64,000 nt of DNA from Actinorugispora endophytica (GCF_004363075.1 NZ_SNYN01000004.1:186001-250000), one strand, 5' to 3'; positions 1-63,836 are shown, counted from the stretch's first letter. Numbers and translations are program-made. The notes: generated by a model not told the origin, from the sequence alone.

Positions 1-705
1 GATGACCCGTCCCGGCCGCAGGTAGCGCAGGTAGCAACCCATGAACAGCGCGATCGGGATCGTCATGATCAGGGAGAACGATCCCCAGGGGGAGTCGGCC
101 AGCGCGTTGACCACCACCATGGCCAGGACCGCCAGCAGGATGATCATGATGGCCAGGACGGCGACCAGCGCGGCCACGCCGCCGACGGGGCCGATCTCCT
201 CGCGCGCCATCTGGCCCAGGCTCCTGCCGTTGCGGCGCATGGAGAAGAACAGCACCACCATGTCCTGCACGGCCCCGGCGAAGATCACGCCGATGATGAT
301 CCACAGGGTCCCGGGGAGGTAGCCCATCTGGGCGGCCAGCACCGGGCCCACGAGCGGTCCGGCCCCGGCGATGGCCGCGAAGTGGTGGCCGTAGAGCACG
401 CGGCGGTCGGTGGGGTGGAAGTCGGTGCCGTTGTTGATCCGTTCGGCCGGCGTGGCCCGGGTGTCGTCCACGCGCAGGACGCGGTAGCTGATGAAGCGCG
501 CGTAGAAGCGGTACCCGATCGCGTACGAGGCGAGCGCGGCGAAGATCAGCCACGCCGCCGAGATCTCCTCGCCCCTGGACAGGGCCACGACGCCCCACGC
601 GGCGGCCCCGACCACGGCCACGGCCGCCCAGACGGCGATGCGTGCGGGAGTCCAGCGCGGTGGCGGCGCCGCTTCCCGTTCGACCGTGCGGTTGGTACTC
701 GACAC
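1..705 (-). CDS. cstA: Carbon starvation protein A (CstA), C-terminus cut by window edge
   Basis: Peptide transporter CstA family, induced at carbon starvation and also implicated in pyruvate uptake. The 235 visible residues start at a GTG (705) with AGAGGGGG seven bases upstream. After a short polar N-terminus come hydrophobic segments at about residues 21-40 and 48-65, then the family signature around residues 105-130: THE motif NGTDFHPTDRRVLYGHHFAAI region followed by GAGPLVGPVLAA and a VQDM motif. Further membrane helices follow. The rest of the roughly 600-700 residue protein lies outside the window. It is transcribed away from the amidotransferase-like gene, so the 360 bp between them hold two divergent promoters. 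Identification is firm; substrate is inferred from the family. Confidence 0.92.
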   Translation of the reverse strand, partial: MSSTNRTVEREAAPPPRWTPARIAVWAAVAVVGAAAWGVVALSRGEEISAAWLIFAALASYAIGYRFYARFISYRVLRVDDTRATPAERINNGTDFHPTDRRVLYGHHFAAIAGAGPLVGPVLAAQMGYLPGTLWIIIGVIFAGAVQDMVVLFFSMRRNGRSLGQMAREEIGPVGGVAALVAVLAIMIILLAVLAMVVVNALADSPWGSFSLIMTIPIALFMGCYLRYLRPGRVI

Positions 706-783
706 GTTGGTCCCCCTCTGTCTTCTGGGAGCGTCTGTGATCAACCGGGTGATTGAAACATATTCTCACTCGGCGTGTCACCG

Positions 784-801
784 ATCACTACTGGAAGTGA
801 T
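784..801. promoter_or_regulatory. Inverted repeat in the cstA divergent promoter region
   Basis: The 706-1065 gap holds no gene. It includes an AT-richer stretch (about 738-806) with the inverted repeat ATCACT (784-789), six-base spacer, AGTGAT (796-801), and a nearby GTGATC...GTGATT pair. It lies about 80 bp upstream of cstA. This may be an operator, possibly of a CRP/FNR-type regulator, but the match to TGTGA-N6-TCACA is poor, so the binding protein is unknown. Confidence 0.3.
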
Positions 802-1065
802 TGCATTCGGGGGGGTTGGAGACAGAGAGTAGACCGTTTCGGAGCCGCGTACGGTCCGCGCCGCCGGAGGGCCCCGGCCCCTGGCCGGCGGGTCCGCTCC
901 GGGACGCGAACCGGCGGAAACCCCCGCGCGGGCGCGGACGGGATCGTAGGATCGCGGCAAACCGATAAACCGGTGCCAACAGTGCTATTGGTTCAATCGG
1001 GACGGATCCGGCAATAGGATTCTGGCGCCGTCACCACCCCCACCTCAGGAGCCTCAGGAGGACGC

Positions 1066-1740
1066 ATGGCCCGTCCGCTCATCGGGATCACGAGTCACCT
1101 CGAACCGGCGCGCTGGGGGGACTGGGTCAGGGAGGCCTCGATCGTGGCAACCCCGTTCCTGCGAGAGGTCGACCGCGCCGGGGGCCTGCCCGTCGTGCTG
1201 GCCCCCGTCCACCCGCGCGGGATCGCCGACCTCGCCGAGCGCTTCGACGGGTTCGTGTTCACCACCGGCGCGCCCGTGGGCGCCGGGGCGGGCGGCCCCG
1301 AGTCCCCCTCCGGCGACCCCGACCCGGACCCGCGGCGCGACCGGTTCGAGATCGCGCTGGTCCGCGCGGCCATGGCCGCGGGACGGCCGTTCCTGGCGAT
1401 CGAGCGCGGAGTCCAGGTCCTGAACATCGCGGCGGGCGGCACCCTGCTGCCCGACCAGGAGCACGGCGCCCCCTCCCGCCTGGCCGACACGGACGTGACG
1501 ATCAGCGCGACCAGCGCCCTGGGCCGGGTCCTGGGCGACCACGCCTCGGTGCGCCGCGCGCACGGCCCCGGTGTCAACCGGGTCGGCGCCGGACTGGCGC
1601 CGGTCGCCTGGGACGGGTCCCAGGCGGTGGAGGCGCTGGAGGTGGCGGGCCACCCCTTCGGAGTCGGGGTGCGCTGGCGGCCCGAGGAGGGCGGCGACCG
1701 CCGCCTGTTCGAGACGCTGGTGGCCCGGGCCGGGTCCTGA
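1066..1740 (+). CDS. Class I glutamine amidotransferase-like protein (peptidase C26 family) lacking the catalytic Cys
   Basis: 224 residues, close to the usual length of the gamma-glutamyl-GABA hydrolase (PuuD) family. The N-terminus RPLIGITSHLE is typical, and the helix after the nucleophile elbow is recognisable as AIERGVQVLN. In active members this reads GICRGMQLLN, so the nucleophilic Cys is Glu113 here. The usual GGGDV-type loop is also degenerate (FTTGAPV, residues 65-71). A candidate active-site His remains at 166. The start has AGGAGG six bases upstream. The fold is well supported, but hydrolase activity is unlikely without the Cys, so this may be a binding or regulatory paralogue. 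No pathway partner is adjacent. Confidence 0.75.
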   Translation: MARPLIGITSHLEPARWGDWVREASIVATPFLREVDRAGGLPVVLAPVHPRGIADLAERFDGFVFTTGAPVGAGAGGPESPSGDPDPDPRRDRFEIALVRAAMAAGRPFLAIERGVQVLNIAAGGTLLPDQEHGAPSRLADTDVTISATSALGRVLGDHASVRRAHGPGVNRVGAGLAPVAWDGSQAVEALEVAGHPFGVGVRWRPEEGGDRRLFETLVARAGS

Positions 1741-1826
1741 GCCGCGGGACGGCGTCCGGGCAGGCAGCGGCCTCTCCCGTATCGTTGCCCCGGTAGGCTC
1801 GGGACAGGGGAAACGGGGAGGTGAAC

Positions 1827-2516
1827 ATGGCGGTCTCGACGGACGTCGGGGACTCCGCGGCGGACCGGGTATGGACGGTCCCGAACGTGATCAGCATGGT
1901 GCGGCTGCTCGGAGTACCGCTGTTCCTGTGGTTGGTCCTCGGCCCCCGGGCCGACCTGTGGGCTCTGGCGGTACTCGCCCTGGCCGGGCTGTCGGACTGG
2001 CTCGACGGCAAGATCGCCCGGGCCTGGAACCAGACCAGCCGCCTGGGCACGCTGCTGGACCCGATGGCGGACCGGCTCTACATCTTCGCCGCGCTGCTGG
2101 GTCTGGTCGTGCGGGACGTCGTCCCGTGGTGGCTGATGGCGATCCTGGTCCTGCGCGACGCGCTCATCGTCGGCGCGCTGCCGATCCTCCGGCACTACGG
2201 TTACGGACCACTCCCGGTCAACTTCGCGGGCAAGGCCGCCACGTTGTGCCTGCTCTACTCCTTTCCGCTGCTGTTCCTGGCGGGCTATTCGGGAACTGTC
2301 GGTTATGTGGCGCAAATCGTGGGTTGGGCTTTCGCGATCTGGGGAACGGCTATCTACTGGTGGGCCGGATTGCTGTACACGGTCCAGGGGCTCCGGCTGA
2401 TCGCAGAAAGCCGGACCCTTGACCACGCCCCCGCGGCCGGGACCCGGCCCGGGGCGCGGACGGAAGAAGAGCCGGTCGGTGATCCCGACGCGATCGAACG
2501 CGGTGCACAGGCGTGA
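1827..2516 (+). CDS. CDP-alcohol phosphatidyltransferase family membrane protein
   Basis: Integral membrane enzyme that transfers a phosphatidyl group from CDP-diacylglycerol to an alcohol. The full signature is present at residues 53-79: D-x2-DG-x2-AR, then x8-G-x3-D-x3-D (SDWLDGKIAR ... GTLLDPMAD), which supplies the metal and CDP ligands. About five to six hydrophobic helices follow, and the C-terminal tail is charged. ATG 1827 has GGGAG six bases upstream; an in-frame GTG at 1821 touches that site and is less likely. The acceptor alcohol (glycerol phosphate, inositol phosphate or other) cannot be read from sequence. The next gene is the nucleotidyltransferase-mutase fusion, a neighbour order also known in Streptomyces. 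Confidence 0.88.
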   Translation: MAVSTDVGDSAADRVWTVPNVISMVRLLGVPLFLWLVLGPRADLWALAVLALAGLSDWLDGKIARAWNQTSRLGTLLDPMADRLYIFAALLGLVVRDVVPWWLMAILVLRDALIVGALPILRHYGYGPLPVNFAGKAATLCLLYSFPLLFLAGYSGTVGYVAQIVGWAFAIWGTAIYWWAGLLYTVQGLRLIAESRTLDHAPAAGTRPGARTEEEPVGDPDAIERGAQA

Positions 2517-2647
2517 GGGCACGCCCGCCGCGCGGCCGGTGACTCCGGGCCACCGCCTCGCGACTATGAAGGGAGCGACATCCCCACCATGAGACCCCGC
2601 GCCATGGCGGTTCGCCGAACATCCCCCGGGGCTTGGAGGTGGCCGCG

Positions 2648-5146
2648 ATGAAGGCCGTCGTGATGGCCGGCGGAGAGGGCACCCGTCTTCGCCCTATGAC
2701 CGCCAACCAGCCCAAACCACTGCTGCCGGTCGTCAACCGGCCGATCATGGAGCACGTGCTCCGCCTGCTGAAACGGCACGGCTTCGATGACACGGTCGTC
2801 ACCGTCCAGTTCCTCGCCACCCTGATCCGGAACTACTTCGGGGACGGCGAGGAGCTCGGGATGAACCTGCGCTACGTCGCCGAAGAGGTGCCGCTCGGCA
2901 CCGCCGGAAGCGTCAAGAACGCCGAGGAGCACCTCAAGGGAGAGCCGTTCATCGTCATCTCCGGCGACGCGCTCACCGACATCGACCTCTCGGACATGGT
3001 GCGTTTCCACCGGGAGAACGGCGCGATGGTCACCATCGGGCTCAAGCGGGTCGCCAACCCGCTGGAGTTCGGGATCATCATCGTCGACGACGACGGCCGC
3101 GTGCAGCGGTTCCTGGAGAAGCCGACCTGGGGCCAGGTCTTCTCCGACACCGTCAACACCGGCATCTACATCATGGAGCCCGAGGTCCTGGACCAGGTCG
3201 CCGCGGGCGAGAACGTCGACTGGTCCAGCGACGTCTTCCCCAGGCTCCTGGAGGCGGGCGCGCCTCTGTACGGCTACATCGCCGACGGCTACTGGGAGGA
3301 CGTGGGCACCCACGAGAGCTACCTGAGCGCCCAGGCCGACGTGCTCTCGGGCAAGGTCGACGTGGAGATCGACGGCTTCGAGGTGTCCCCGGGGATCTGG
3401 ATCGCCGAGGGCGCCGAGGTCGACGTGGACGCGGTCCTCAAGGGCCCGCTCTACATCGGCGACTACGCCAAGGTCGAGGCGGGCGCGGAACTGCGCGAGT
3501 ACACCGTGCTGGGCAGCAACGTGGTGGTGCGCTCCGAGGCGTTCCTGCACCGGGCCGTGGTGCACGACAACGTGTACGTGGGCACCGGCACCAACCTGCG
3601 CGGCTGCGTCATCGGCAAGAACACCGACATCATGACCGGCGCCCGGGTCGAGGAGGGCACGGTCGTCGGTGAAGAGTGCGTCATCGAGTCCGAGGCCTAC
3701 CTCGCCAACGGGATCAAGGTCTACCCGTTCAAGACGATCGAGGCGGGCGCGGTCGTCAACACCAACGTCATCTGGGAGTCCAAGGGGCAGCGCTCGCTGT
3801 TCGGACCCCGCGGCGTGTCCGGGCTGATCAACGTCGAGATCACCCCCGAACTCGCCGTGCGCCTGGCCAGCGCGTACGCCACCACCCTCAAGAAGGGCGC
3901 GGTGGTCACCACCTCCCGGGACGTGTCCCGGGCCGCGCGGGCGCTCAAGCGCGCGGTCATCAGCGCGCTCACGGCGGGGGCCATCAACGTGCTGGACCTG
4001 GAGGCCGCGCCGCTGCCGATGGCGCGCTTCCACACCTCCCAGTCGGGGGTGAGCGGCGGGATCGCGCTGCGCACCACACCGGGCGACCCGCAGTCGGTGG
4101 ACATCGTCTTCCTCGACTCCAGCGGAGCGGACCTGTCCCCGGCCGCCCAGCGCAAACTGGAGCGGGTGTTCTCCCGGCAGGAGTACCGCAGGGCCTTCCC
4201 CGGCGAGATCGCCGAGCTCTCCTTCCCCTCCAGGGACGTCGAGGTCTACGCGCACGAGATCCTGCGGCGCGTCGACGTCTCGGGGGTGGACGAGGCCGGT
4301 CTCAAGGTCGTGGTGGACTGCGCGGGCGGCACCGGATCGTTGATCCTGCCGTCGCTGCTGGGCCGGATCGGCGCGGAGGTGCTCACCGTCAACAACCGGC
4401 TCGACGAGGCGTCGCCCACCGACACCCTGGCCAGGCAGATGCGCGACCTGCAGCGCCTGGGCGAGCTGGTGGCGTCGTCCCGGGCCGACTTCGGGGTCCG
4501 GTTCGACCCCGTGGCCGAGCGGCTGCAGCTGGTCGACGGCAACGGCGAGCTGGTCGACAACGAGCGGGCGCTGCTGGTGGTCCTGGACCTGGTGGCGGCC
4601 GAGCGGCGCGGCGGCAGGGTGGCGCTGCCGGTCACCACGACCCGGGTCGCCGAGCAGGTCGCCAACTTCCACGGCGTCCAGGTGCAGTGGACGCCCACGG
4701 CCACGGACGAGCTCACCAAGGCCGCGCTGGCGGACGACATCGTGTTCGCCGCCGACGGCCGGGGCGGGTTCATCCTGCCGGAGTTCTCCCGCACCAGCGA
4801 CGGAATCGCCGCATTCGTACGCCTGGTCGGACTGGTGGCACGCACTAAGCTGTCGCTCAGCCAGATCGACCAGAGGATCCCTCAGGCGCACCTGCTGCGC
4901 CGTTCGGTTCCCACCCCTTGGGCGGTCAAGGGCAGCGTCATGCGCGAGGTCGTCGAGGCCGCACAGGGCCGCGAGATCGACACCACCGACGGGGTCAGGG
5001 TGATCGAGCCCGACGGGTCCTGGGCGCTGGTGCTGCCCGACACCGCCGAGGCGGTCACCCACCTGTGGGCCGAGGGCCCCGACGGGGACACCGCCCAGCG
5101 GTTGCTCGAGGAGTGGGCGGCCGTGGTCGAACGGGCGGAGGGCTGA
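2648..5146 (+). CDS. Sugar-phosphate nucleotidyltransferase / phosphomannomutase-like fusion (mannose-1-phosphate guanylyltransferase type)
   Basis: 832 residues with three parts. Residues 1-235 form an NTP-transferase domain with the pyrophosphorylase motif GGEGTRLRPMT (7-17) and QPKPLLPVVN. Residues about 250-360 are left-handed beta-helix hexapeptide repeats. Residues about 375-830 resemble the phosphomannomutase/phosphoglucomutase fold. It probably makes GDP-mannose or a related nucleotide sugar for cell-envelope glycans. The mutase part lacks the TASHNP phosphoserine loop; the equivalent region reads SQSGVSGGIALR. That loop is also altered in cyanobacterial and actinobacterial relatives, so mutase activity is doubtful. 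ATG 2648 has GGAGG eight bases upstream. The cytosolic role is inferred from the family. Confidence 0.85.
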   Translation: MKAVVMAGGEGTRLRPMTANQPKPLLPVVNRPIMEHVLRLLKRHGFDDTVVTVQFLATLIRNYFGDGEELGMNLRYVAEEVPLGTAGSVKNAEEHLKGEPFIVISGDALTDIDLSDMVRFHRENGAMVTIGLKRVANPLEFGIIIVDDDGRVQRFLEKPTWGQVFSDTVNTGIYIMEPEVLDQVAAGENVDWSSDVFPRLLEAGAPLYGYIADGYWEDVGTHESYLSAQADVLSGKVDVEIDGFEVSPGIWIAEGAEVDVDAVLKGPLYIGDYAKVEAGAELREYTVLGSNVVVRSEAFLHRAVVHDNVYVGTGTNLRGCVIGKNTDIMTGARVEEGTVVGEECVIESEAYLANGIKVYPFKTIEAGAVVNTNVIWESKGQRSLFGPRGVSGLINVEITPELAVRLASAYATTLKKGAVVTTSRDVSRAARALKRAVISALTAGAINVLDLEAAPLPMARFHTSQSGVSGGIALRTTPGDPQSVDIVFLDSSGADLSPAAQRKLERVFSRQEYRRAFPGEIAELSFPSRDVEVYAHEILRRVDVSGVDEAGLKVVVDCAGGTGSLILPSLLGRIGAEVLTVNNRLDEASPTDTLARQMRDLQRLGELVASSRADFGVRFDPVAERLQLVDGNGELVDNERALLVVLDLVAAERRGGRVALPVTTTRVAEQVANFHGVQVQWTPTATDELTKAALADDIVFAADGRGGFILPEFSRTSDGIAAFVRLVGLVARTKLSLSQIDQRIPQAHLLRRSVPTPWAVKGSVMREVVEAAQGREIDTTDGVRVIEPDGSWALVLPDTAEAVTHLWAEGPDGDTAQRLLEEWAAVVERAEG

Positions 5147-60731: not shown

Positions 60732-60770
60732 GCGGTCCGGGGCCGCGCGGACGCCGCGCGGCCCCGGACC
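60732..60770 (-). terminator. Terminator of the receiver-flavoprotein/kinase operon
   Basis: An 18-bp perfect stem (60732-60749 with 60753-60770) has loop ACG, four bases after the kinase stop. It separates the signalling operon from the acyl-CoA ligase. Confidence 0.7.
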
Positions 60771-60774
60771 GTCA

Positions 60775-62187
60775 TCAGGGGGCGGGGGCGGTGAGGGGGA
60801 GCCGGACCTGGAAGCGGGTGTCGCCGGGTTCGGACACGACCCGCAGGTCGCCGCCGTGGCGGCCGGCCACGATGCGATAGGAGATGTCCAGTCCCAGGCC
60901 GGTCCCCCTGCCGACCTGCTTGGTGGTGAAGAACGGCTCGAAGATCCGGTCGCGCAGCTCCTCGGGGACCCCCGGACCGGTGTCGCCGATCTCGACCAGC
61001 GCGGTGTCGTGCTCGCGGGCCGTGCGCACGGTCAGCGTGCCGGAGCCGTCCATCGCGTCCAGGGCGTTGTGGACCAGGTTGGTCCACACCTGGTTGAGCT
61101 CCCCGCCGTAGGCGGGGAGCGGCGGCAGGTCCGGGTCGTACTCGGTGACCACGCCGACGTCCGGCGGGATCCTGCCCCGGAGCATGGCGAGTGTGCTGTC
61201 CAGCAGCTCCCGCACGTCCACGTTCCGGTTCGGGGCCCGGTCCATCTGCGAGTACTGCTTGGCGGAGGCCAGCAGCGAGGAGATCCGCTCGGTCGCGTCG
61301 GTCACCTCGTCCAGCATCTGCGCGATCTCCGTGGCCTCGGCGAACCAGCGCAGCGCCGCCCCCAGGTGCTCGTCGCCCACCGAGGCGCGGACGGTCTCCA
61401 GGGTGCCGAGCCCGAACCCGGCGCCCACCAGGGCCGGCGCGATCTCCCAGCCCTCCCCGACCCCGAGTCCGTCCAACGCGTCCGACAGCTCGTCCTCGGC
61501 GTCGGAGACCTCCAGCGGGGACCTGTGCGGGGCACCGCCCGTGTTCCGCGCGCAGCTCTCCTGGACCTCCACCAGGGCCGACACCCGGTCCGGGGGGATT
61601 CCCGCCGCCGCCAGCTCGGCCAGCCGCCGCCCGGAGGAGCCGACCCGCTCGCGCAGCTCGCCCACGGCCCGCACCGCCGCGGCGGCGGGGTTGTTGAGCT
61701 CGTGGGTGAGCCCGGCGGTGATCGTGCCGAACGCGGTCAGGCGCTGGCGCCGGTCGATCAGCTCGCGCTGCGCGATCCCGCCGATCCGCAGCCCGTCCAG
61801 CAGGTGCACCGCCATCGGGAACCACTCGGCCATGGTCCGGCCGAACTCCCGGGCGGGGAACGCGAGCAGCGTCGAGGGCCGGACCGCGCGCAGGGAGTGG
61901 GGGTAGCTGTCGGGGGCGCGTTCGCCCAGGTAGGCGGAGATCGCCCCGGCGTAGACGCCCGGCTGGGAGGTGGGCTCCATCGAGACCGTTCCGGTGGTGG
62001 TCTCGACCAGCAGCACGACCTCGCCCTCGACGAGCACGTAGAAGCGCTCGGCCGGGTCGCCCTGGCGGACCACGGTCTCGTCCGCGCCGAAGGAGAGCTC
62101 CTCGCCGTGGTGGGCCAGCCACTCCAGCCGGTCGTCGTCGAGCTTCTCGAAGAGGAACAGTCCGCGCAGGTCGTCCGCTGCGATCAC
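60775..62187 (-). CDS. Cyclic-nucleotide-domain histidine kinase
   Basis: 470 residues. Residues 1-135 form a cyclic-nucleotide-binding-type (CNB) domain: [38 protein letters not shown] and [17 protein letters not shown]. There is no DNA-binding helix-turn-helix. The kinase part follows: H-box [20 protein letters not shown] with His162, then the ATPase domain with [19 protein letters not shown] and [10 protein letters not shown]. No membrane helix is visible, so it is a cytosolic sensor. Its GTG overlaps the stop of the receiver-flavoprotein gene (GTGA), which makes these partners. What the CNB domain binds is not evident; the usual phosphate-cassette arginine motif is not clear. Confidence 0.9.
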
Positions 62188-63836
62188 GTCTTCTCCAGGT
62201 ACCGGTGGACCAGGGACACGGCCATCGCCCCCTCGCCGACGGCGGAGGCGACCCGCTTGATGGACTCGGCGCGCACGTCCCCGGCCGCGAAGACGCCGGG
62301 AACGCTCGTCTCCAGGAAGTACGGCTGGCGCCGCAGCGGCCAGTCGCGGGGGCGCTCCCCGGTGGCCAGCAGGTCGGGGCCGGTGACGACGAAGCCCCTC
62401 GCGTCGCGTTCGACCGCGTCGCCGAGCCAGTCGGTGCGGGGCTGGGCGCCGATGAAGACGAACAGCCACTCGGCGTCGACCGTGCGCGCGCCCTCGGGGC
62501 CTTCGAGCGTCAGCCGCTCCAGGTGGTCGCCGCCCTCCCCGGCGGTGACCCGGGTCCGCGTGTGCACCTCGATGTTCGCGATCCCGGCGATCTGCTCGAC
62601 CAGGTAGTGCGACATGGACTTGCCCAGGTCGTCGCCCCTGACCAGCAGGTGCACCCGGCTGGCGTAGCCGGACAGGTGCACCGCGGCCTGCCCCGCCGAG
62701 TTGGCCGCGCCGACGATGTAGACGTCGGTGCCCTTGCACGACGGCGCCTCGGTCAGGGCCGCGCCGTAGAAGACGCCGCGGCCGGTGAACTCGTCGAGGC
62801 CGGGGGCGTCGAGCCGCCGGTAGGTGACGCCGGTCGCCAGGATCACCGCGTGCGCCGCGATGCTCCCGCCGTCGGAGAACCCCACCACCCTGCCCTGCCC
62901 CCTGGCCTCCAGGCTCGTCACCGTCCGGGCGGTGAGCAGTTCCGCGCCGAACTTCAGCGCCTGCCTGCGCGCGCGGTCGGCGAGCTGGCCGCCGGAGACC
63001 CCGTCGGGGAAGCCCAGGTAGTTCTCGATGCGCGAGCTCTGGCCCGCCTGGCCGCCCGAGGCGTGCTGCTCCACCAGGACCGTGCGCAGCCCCTCGGAGG
63101 CGCCGTACACGGCGGCGCCCAGCCCGCCGGGGCCGCCGCCGATGACGACGAGGTCGTAGAAGTCGGTCGCGGGGGTGGTGGACAGGCCGACGGCGGTGGC
63201 GAGCTCGGCGTCGCCGGGCGCCGACAGCGTGGTGCCGTCGGCGGTGACCACCAGCGGCAGCGCGGGCCCGGGCCCGCCCAGGGCCGCGATCAGCTGCGCG
63301 CCCTCGGGCTCCTCGTCGAGCAGCCACCGGTACGGCACGTGGTTGCGGGCGAGGAAGTCGCGTACCCGGTAGGAGGGGGACGACCAGCGGGCGCCGACCA
63401 CCCGCAGCTCGGGACGCTCCAGCCGCTCGGCGCGCTGCCAGGAGTCCAGCTGCGCGTCGATCACCGGGTAGAACTTCTCCTCCGGCGGGTCCCACGGCTT
63501 GAGCAGGTAGTGGTCGAGGTCGATGACGTTGATCGCCCGGATGGCCGCGTCGGTGTCCGCGTAGGCGGTGAGGAGTATCCGCCGCGCGTACGGGTACAGG
63601 TCCATGGCCTGCTCGAGAAACTCCACGCCGTTCATCTGCGGCATGCGGTAGTCGGCGAGGACCGCCGCCACGTCGTCCCCGCGCAGCCGCATCTCGCGGA
63701 CCGCCTCGATACCCTGCGCCGGCGACTCGGCGCGCACGATCCGGTACGAGTGGCCGTACCGGCGTCGAAGGTCGCGCGCCACCCCGCGGGAGACCCCGGG
63801 GTCGTCGTCCACCGTCACGATGACAGGTTTGTCCAT
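62184..63836 (-). CDS. Response-regulator receiver / thioredoxin-reductase-like flavoprotein fusion
   Basis: 550 residues in three parts. Residues 1-125 are a CheY-like receiver with Asp10-12, phospho-acceptor Asp62 in LADYRMP, Thr90 and Lys113. Residues about 145-215 look like a thioredoxin/glutaredoxin-fold domain (SSPSYRVRDFLARNHVPYRWL) without a CxxC. Residues 225-550 are a thioredoxin-reductase-like FAD/NADPH module: GGGPGG at 233-238, GQSSRIENYLGFP, IVGAANSAGQAAVHLS, and AAGDVRAESIKRVASAVGEGAMA. The CxxC disulfide of true reductases is absent; only Cys367 remains (EAPSCKG). Phosphorylation may thus gate a flavin NADPH oxidase or redox switch. ATG 63836 has GGGGAAG upstream. The gene is first in the operon. 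Confidence 0.9.
   Translation of the reverse strand: MDKPVIVTVDDDPGVSRGVARDLRRRYGHSYRIVRAESPAQGIEAVREMRLRGDDVAAVLADYRMPQMNGVEFLEQAMDLYPYARRILLTAYADTDAAIRAINVIDLDHYLLKPWDPPEEKFYPVIDAQLDSWQRAERLERPELRVVGARWSSPSYRVRDFLARNHVPYRWLLDEEPEGAQLIAALGGPGPALPLVVTADGTTLSAPGDAELATAVGLSTTPATDFYDLVVIGGGPGGLGAAVYGASEGLRTVLVEQHASGGQAGQSSRIENYLGFPDGVSGGQLADRARRQALKFGAELLTARTVTSLEARGQGRVVGFSDGGSIAAHAVILATGVTYRRLDAPGLDEFTGRGVFYGAALTEAPSCKGTDVYIVGAANSAGQAAVHLSGYASRVHLLVRGDDLGKSMSHYLVEQIAGIANIEVHTRTRVTAGEGGDHLERLTLEGPEGARTVDAEWLFVFIGAQPRTDWLGDAVERDARGFVVTGPDLLATGERPRDWPLRRQPYFLETSVPGVFAAGDVRAESIKRVASAVGEGAMAVSLVHRYLEKT

Follow-up and report, generated by a model that had tools for sequence, protein, structure and literature searches.

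Architecture of the locus

The window, by which we mean the whole 64,000-nucleotide stretch of Actinorugispora endophytica DNA that was analyzed, harbors 2 overlapping genes on its minus strand, as do all features described below. The first (62184..63836, ATG at 63836 and stop at 62184) encodes a 550-aa fusion of a receiver, a glutaredoxin-like domain, and a thioredoxin reductase (TrxR)-like module, identified from the ORF and its translation, Pfam, and an AlphaFold model (pLDDT 88.4). The second (60775..62187, GTG start at 62187 and stop at 60775; ORF, Pfam) encodes a soluble histidine kinase of 470 aa with a cyclic nucleotide (cNMP)-type domain. The kinase start and the fusion stop share 4 bases, GTGA, and the ORFs thus verified both the gene positions and the four-base overlap given in an earlier note on this DNA. 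A perfect 18-bp hairpin lies 3 nt past the kinase stop (60733..60771; fold −59.9 kcal/mol over 71 nt, z −5.3) and is likely a terminator without a T-run; the consensus terminator scan found nothing at this hairpin because it has no T-run. The terminator placed directly after the kinase by the earlier note is therefore supported by the hairpin, but not by a T-run or by the consensus scan.

A sigma-70 promoter scan gave no match, and known stress promoters (SigB/SigH-type GNNT-GGGTA, SigR, HspR HAIR, and the AdpA box) showed no excess upstream of 69 relatives. A stretch, (C/T)ATGACATNCTTC, is conserved approximately 30–50 bases ahead of the fusion start in Streptosporangiaceae relatives (L008, L009, L010, L012, L013, L017, L020, L025, L027, L031, L035, and L036) and is a possible promoter element; the window carries only a weak form of it, TATGACAGGCTGG.

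The receiver (REC) domain occupies residues 6–118 of the fusion (63483..63821; PF00072 Response_reg, E=9e-13). The acid residues, Asp62, Thr90, and Lys113 reported earlier were all found (D10, D11, D62, T90, and K113), so that the fusion has the acid pair, Asp, Thr/Ser, and Lys expected of a receiver in the TrxB class of response regulators. Asp62 (63651..63653), the predicted phospho-acceptor, was retained by every copy with an intact receiver in an alignment with 190 homologues.

In the kinase, Pfam matched a cNMP_binding domain at residues 32–120 and HATPase_c at 364–466, in agreement with the CNB-type soluble histidine kinase described earlier. The catalytic domain (60790..61098; PF02518, E=1.4e-24) carries the N and G boxes, and DHp helix 1 (61606..61821; model and alignment) carries the H-box HELNNP with His162 (61702..61704), the predicted phospho-donor, together the marks of a histidine kinase. 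H162, N166, and P167 were invariant in an alignment of 37 kinases, and the alignments thus retain the phosphotransfer residues on both the kinase and the fusion. The kinase model places the DHp helices at residues 123–194 and 272–317, with a four-helix insertion between them (residues 199–270; 61378..61593) that is present throughout the kinase alignment. This modeled insertion, by splitting the DHp helices, would explain why Pfam HisKA left the window kinase unmatched and scored the Gloeothece kinase below threshold. The N-terminal sensor domain (61825..62169; PF00027, E=1.3e-11) has the cNMP-binding fold according to Pfam but not the canonical Glu and Arg of the phosphate-binding cassette, the Arg being absent from the window kinase in the alignment. 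The canonical cassette is missing in the window clade and kept by some relatives, e.g., L114, GEMSLIEQVPRNAS. Since the cassette is non-canonical, cAMP or another cyclic nucleotide is an unlikely ligand for the window kinase, judging by its sequence.

Cysteine centers and cofactor sites of the fusion

The TrxR-like module spans residues 225–549 (62190..63164) and was identified by Pfam (PF07992, E=1.5e-34, with the Pyr_redox_2 match covering residues 227–536) and by structural fits, giving the fusion the C-terminal Pyr_redox module of the TrxB class. It is approximately 24–33% identical to solved thioredoxin reductase structures. At the site of the TrxR CxxC, however, it has the cysteine-free loop FYGAALTE (residues 356–363; 62748..62771; phmmer against 4zn0), and none of the 190 homologues had a CxxC there, with 3 of them harboring an unrelated CxxC a few residues beyond. 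The only cysteine in the 550 aa of the fusion is Cys367 (62736..62738).

Between the receiver and the reductase lies a degenerate glutaredoxin/mycoredoxin-like domain (residues ~143–222; 63171..63410). Its fold was recognized by profile, model, and Pfam: a profile of 23 relatives matched the mycobacterial mycoredoxin Rv3198.1 (2lqo) with E=3e-7, the AlphaFold model runs in the order strand-helix-strand-helix-strand-strand-helix, and PF00462 (glutaredoxin) touched the linker in 9 of the 23 members. The CxxC/CxxS active site is missing, with SSPS (residues 152–155; 63372..63383) at the glutaredoxin CxxC site, where WCGYC of 2lqo aligned to WSxxS. These 2 columns were Ser-Ser in 124 of 190 homologues and a cysteine pair in none. 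The earlier note had missed this second redox domain in the linker, which is likewise dead; the note's description of a TrxR module minus its CxxC stood in the alignment to 4zn0 and in the 190 homologues, but understated the loss, as the CxxC of the glutaredoxin-like domain is gone too. With 1 cysteine and no CxxC, the fusion is, on its sequence, excluded from acting as a thioredoxin reductase by dithiol exchange within one chain.

Known disulfide reductases were also searched for with family models and rejected. The fusion scored 208 bits against the TrxB equivalog TIGR01292 (cut-off 343), without the CxxC of a true thioredoxin reductase, and 163 bits for AhpF (cut-off 503), whose cysteine pair is absent from both parts. 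The score against TIGR04018, the model of the bacillithiol disulfide reductase YpdA, was 54 bits with a cut-off of 340.

The cofactor sites are retained. The FAD motif GxGxxG is present as GGGPGG at residue 233, and the nucleotide motif GxGxxA as GAANSAG, in which the first G and NSA are invariant and the third position is A or G. Both motifs rank among the most invariant columns of the homologue alignment. The HRRxxxR motif for the NADP 2'-phosphate is missing, the window having LVRGDDLGKS with R400 as the sole Arg kept, which makes NADPH use uncertain and NADH use possible. The reductase model fitted structures in the FR conformation (5mh4, TM 0.92; 3r9u, TM 0.91) far better than FO structures and most others (TM ~0.6). 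The FR conformation, with the nucleotide docked on the flavin, would suit an enzyme that no longer swings a disulfide to the flavin, and the preference may also reflect training bias of AlphaFold or a modeling preference. Because the FAD and pyridine-nucleotide folds are kept and the cysteine pair is gone, electrons would be expected to pass to a non-disulfide acceptor or a partner.

These observations bear on 2 other readings of the module. It could be a pseudo-enzyme that binds FAD and NAD(P)H and reports redox state without turnover, the receiver and flavin state jointly governing how it binds a partner, for instance the UBP zinc-finger protein described below. Such a loss of catalysis agrees with disulfide centers gone from 2 domains, with an NADP 2'-phosphate Arg pair down to one, and with a small zinc-finger neighbor that recurs, but we consider it rather doubtful, given FAD and nucleotide motifs more invariant than binding alone would demand and a model that takes hydride-transfer geometry. 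A thiol reductase working through Cys367 alone, whether monothiol, of the YpdA type acting on bacillithiol or mycothiol disulfides, or by cross-dimer pairing, is unlikely. Of 190 homologues, 135 do have a cysteine in the Cys367 column, 118 of 132 intact-receiver copies have one within positions 364–369, and a mycothiol-dependent dehydrogenase gene lies near the Tsukamurella locus. SCO7298, the likely Streptomyces coelicolor counterpart of the fusion as matched by listed class and gene order, is moreover upregulated by polysulfide (PMC9952706, where it is named trxB3). Met or Tyr nevertheless takes the place of the cysteine in L119 and in kinase-paired copies such as L121 and L122, and the YpdA score falls far below its cut-off. 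The preferred reading is that of a cysteine-independent NAD(P)H flavoprotein.

Pairing with the kinase and proposed control in cis or in trans

The kinase adjoins the fusion in all 80 of the nearest relatives from the genome_contigs collection, directly downstream in 78 of them, in line with the earlier description of a dedicated two-component pair whose output does not bind DNA; the pair is a real, conserved, and dedicated one. We surveyed 296 Actinomycetota genomes, each at least 90% complete. The flavoprotein family was identified in 79 of them, and each of the 43 genomes with the kinase also had the family (Fisher 3e-30, a value that overstates independence as the genomes are related). Among 80 receiver-type copies in the survey, 43 had an intact receiver and a kinase nearby, 34 had a degraded receiver and no kinase, 3 had an intact receiver without a kinase nearby, and none combined a degraded receiver with a kinase. 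Intact receivers were thus accompanied by a kinase in 43 of 46 copies. As for the 3 exceptions, the locus is ended by a contig edge in L119, and a second kinase lies 18–22 kb off on the same contig in L089, the window genome's own paralogue of the fusion, and in L120. On the tree, the loss of receiver and kinase is one split, comprising a single change and a single independent pair; hence the correlation between receiver integrity and kinase presence is a property of a clade and allows no sign test; repeated independent loss was considered and rejected for the same single change. The proposal that the kinase is always adjacent accordingly holds for the intact-receiver clade but not for the whole family, in which 34 of the 80 receiver-type copies are degraded and kinase-less. 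The N-terminal domains of the kinase-less clade (L123–L155) are pseudo-receivers, receiver-like and without the phosphorylation residues, above a TrxR-like core that is still conserved.

Plasmid records from Gloeothece, Deinococcus, Caballeronia, Tsukamurella, Streptomyces, Paraburkholderia, and Nocardia carry the pair as well, which adds Cyanobacteriota, Deinococcota, and Pseudomonadota to its hosts. It reaches beyond the actinobacteria and proteobacteria named earlier, as shown by its presence in Gloeothece and Deinococcus. The fusion and the kinase are separated by a transposase and a bestrophin gene in Nostoc edaphicum. Genes for GlgX and an AGE-epimerase precede the fusion in the Nostoc and Gloeothece plasmids.

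Fusions with 2 or 3 tandem kinases were found in G125, G174, G200, G208, G216, and G232, and 6 kinases in the Actinomycetota survey had no family copy within 6 kb. Both observations would fit a kinase whose true target lies elsewhere, with the fusion as a phosphate sink or feedback module on the kinase. We regard this as quite improbable, since the family is present in every kinase-bearing genome and the TrxR core is conserved at its cofactor sites, and retain the fusion as the output of the pair. Three tandem kinase copies stand behind one fusion in G125:C106, G174:C1, G200:C9, and G216:C69. The window genome has a second kinase of the same type (L156:6170-7654, G000 contig C23), within a few kb of glgX and of genes for a STAS protein, an RsbW-like ATPase, and a receiver-PP2C-type protein (region 48-3656); the genes around it are partner-switching stress regulators. 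On a Mycolicibacterium plasmid, an orphan kinase of the same type (L208:7016-8434) lies 4–6 kb from 2 genes for adenylate/guanylate cyclases and from another whose annotation reads Pycsar effector family.

A third clade matches the fusion only from residue ~140, with a cNMP-type domain at the N-terminus in 8 of 8 copies tested, and none of 27 such copies in the survey had the kinase next door. We infer that the phosphorelay puts in trans the cNMP-type control that these relatives have in cis.

A small UBP-type zinc-finger (zf-UBP) gene accompanies the family. zf-UBP sites lay within 8 kb of the family in 31 of 106 cases in the survey against ~0.5 expected, and the gene was identified in 60 of 79 family genomes compared with 16 of 217 others. 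In Streptomyces and Tsukamurella it comes directly after the kinase; it stands beside cis-type copies too, and lies upstream of the window genome's paralogue (L089). At the window locus itself, no zinc-finger gene is present in cis. No fusion of zinc finger and flavoprotein was seen in a few survey genomes for which match positions and frames were compared. The UBP-type zinc-finger protein is the best candidate for a partner of the flavoprotein. The second receiver-TrxR copy of the window genome is also convergent with a gene (L089:6104-7597, G000 contig C23) for a CPA2-type cation/proton antiporter that carries a UBP-type zinc finger at its C-terminus.

In Rhodococcus (L186:1-7236), the gene order is dnaK-grpE-dnaJ-cbpM-clpB-trxA-zinc finger-flavoprotein, and the order in L163 and L165 from the survey is identical to that of this chaperone operon, the flavoprotein at the end being of the cNMP type and CxxC-less in all 3. 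Together with the DJ-1-type genes near some family copies, the chaperone-operon context argues for a setting in stress and protein quality control.

Proposed function and comparison with known systems

We propose that the locus encodes a two-component pair of dedicated partners, with a cysteine-independent NAD(P)H flavoprotein, under phosphorelay control in stress, as the probable output. The kinase would sense a signal, probably not cAMP, through its cNMP-type domain, autophosphorylate at His162, and donate this phosphate to the fusion at Asp62. Once phosphorylated, the receiver may shift the domain arrangement or the docking of the TrxR-like module, with the glutaredoxin-like domain as an inert spacer between them. 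In that module, FAD would relay electrons from NAD(P)H to a partner protein or a non-disulfide acceptor and not to thioredoxin. The output of the pair would thus be an enzyme activity. In relatives, the same flavoprotein core would be controlled by a cNMP-type domain in cis, with kinase and receiver supplying that control in trans, and the UBP-type zinc-finger protein may serve as partner in a setting of stress and protein quality control. More tentatively, and as a possibility that we favor well below the general proposal, the protein may be a kinase-gated, cysteine-independent NAD(P)H flavoprotein derived from a disulfide-reductase scaffold that, during protein-damage stress, has a UBP-type zinc-finger protein as its target or intermediary, under cNMP-type control in cis or in trans. 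To our knowledge, a kinase-gated, cysteine-independent flavoprotein output would be a response-regulator chemistry without characterized precedent.

If this is true, redox catalysis would be the output of a two-component system. The class is annotated as thioredoxin reductases, although the family lacks both cysteine centers that the reaction requires, and at least 1 study counts a member, SCO7298, as a thioredoxin reductase (trxB3; PMC9952706). What is widely annotated as a "thioredoxin reductase" is therefore probably another kind of redox protein, under signal control and active in stress. If the pair works as proposed, the swap of domains between cis and trans would be a direct handle on the nature of the signal, and the zinc-finger neighbor is a concrete candidate partner.

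Bacterial thioredoxin reductases (TIGR01292) have the fold, FAD site, and nucleotide site in common with the fusion, the CxxC being found only in the TIGR01292 proteins. In AhpF, as in the fusion, a thioredoxin-fold domain precedes a TrxR module, whereas the fusion has no cysteine center in either part and an added receiver. The TrxR-like ferredoxin/flavodoxin-NADP reductases have a TrxR fold without CxxC and pass electrons to non-disulfide acceptors; they are free-standing, unlike the receiver-fused protein described here, which is less similar in sequence to them than to true TrxR. The database-named cyclic nucleotide-binding domain-containing "thioredoxin-disulfide reductase" shares the glutaredoxin-like domain and the TrxR-like core without CxxC, but its cNMP-type domain replaces the receiver and it has no adjoining kinase (27 copies).

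The pair belongs to the already catalogued, uncharacterized TrxB class. The earlier note knew of similar architectures only as unnamed database entries; TrxB is in fact a listed class of response regulators, with SCO7297/SCO7298 of S. coelicolor named as a kinase/TrxB pair (PMC9739842), a "Mycobacterium-like" REC-TrxR combination noted in archaea (PMC5847659), and the class counted in a cyanobacterial census (PMC9953108). We found expression data in the literature, including upregulation of SCO7298 by acid shock (PMC2631018), and no biochemical function for a TrxB-class pair. Like the fusion, the TrxB-class regulators (SCO7297/SCO7298) join REC to a TrxR-like module beside a neighboring kinase. 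In the catalogue entries, however, the output is taken as a thioredoxin reductase, whereas in the window fusion both CxxC centers are gone, a dead glutaredoxin-fold domain forms the linker, and the kinase has both a cNMP domain and an insertion between its DHp helices. To the catalogued class we add an output without disulfide chemistry, a second dead redox domain, a swap of control between cis and trans, and a zinc-finger gene that travels with the family.
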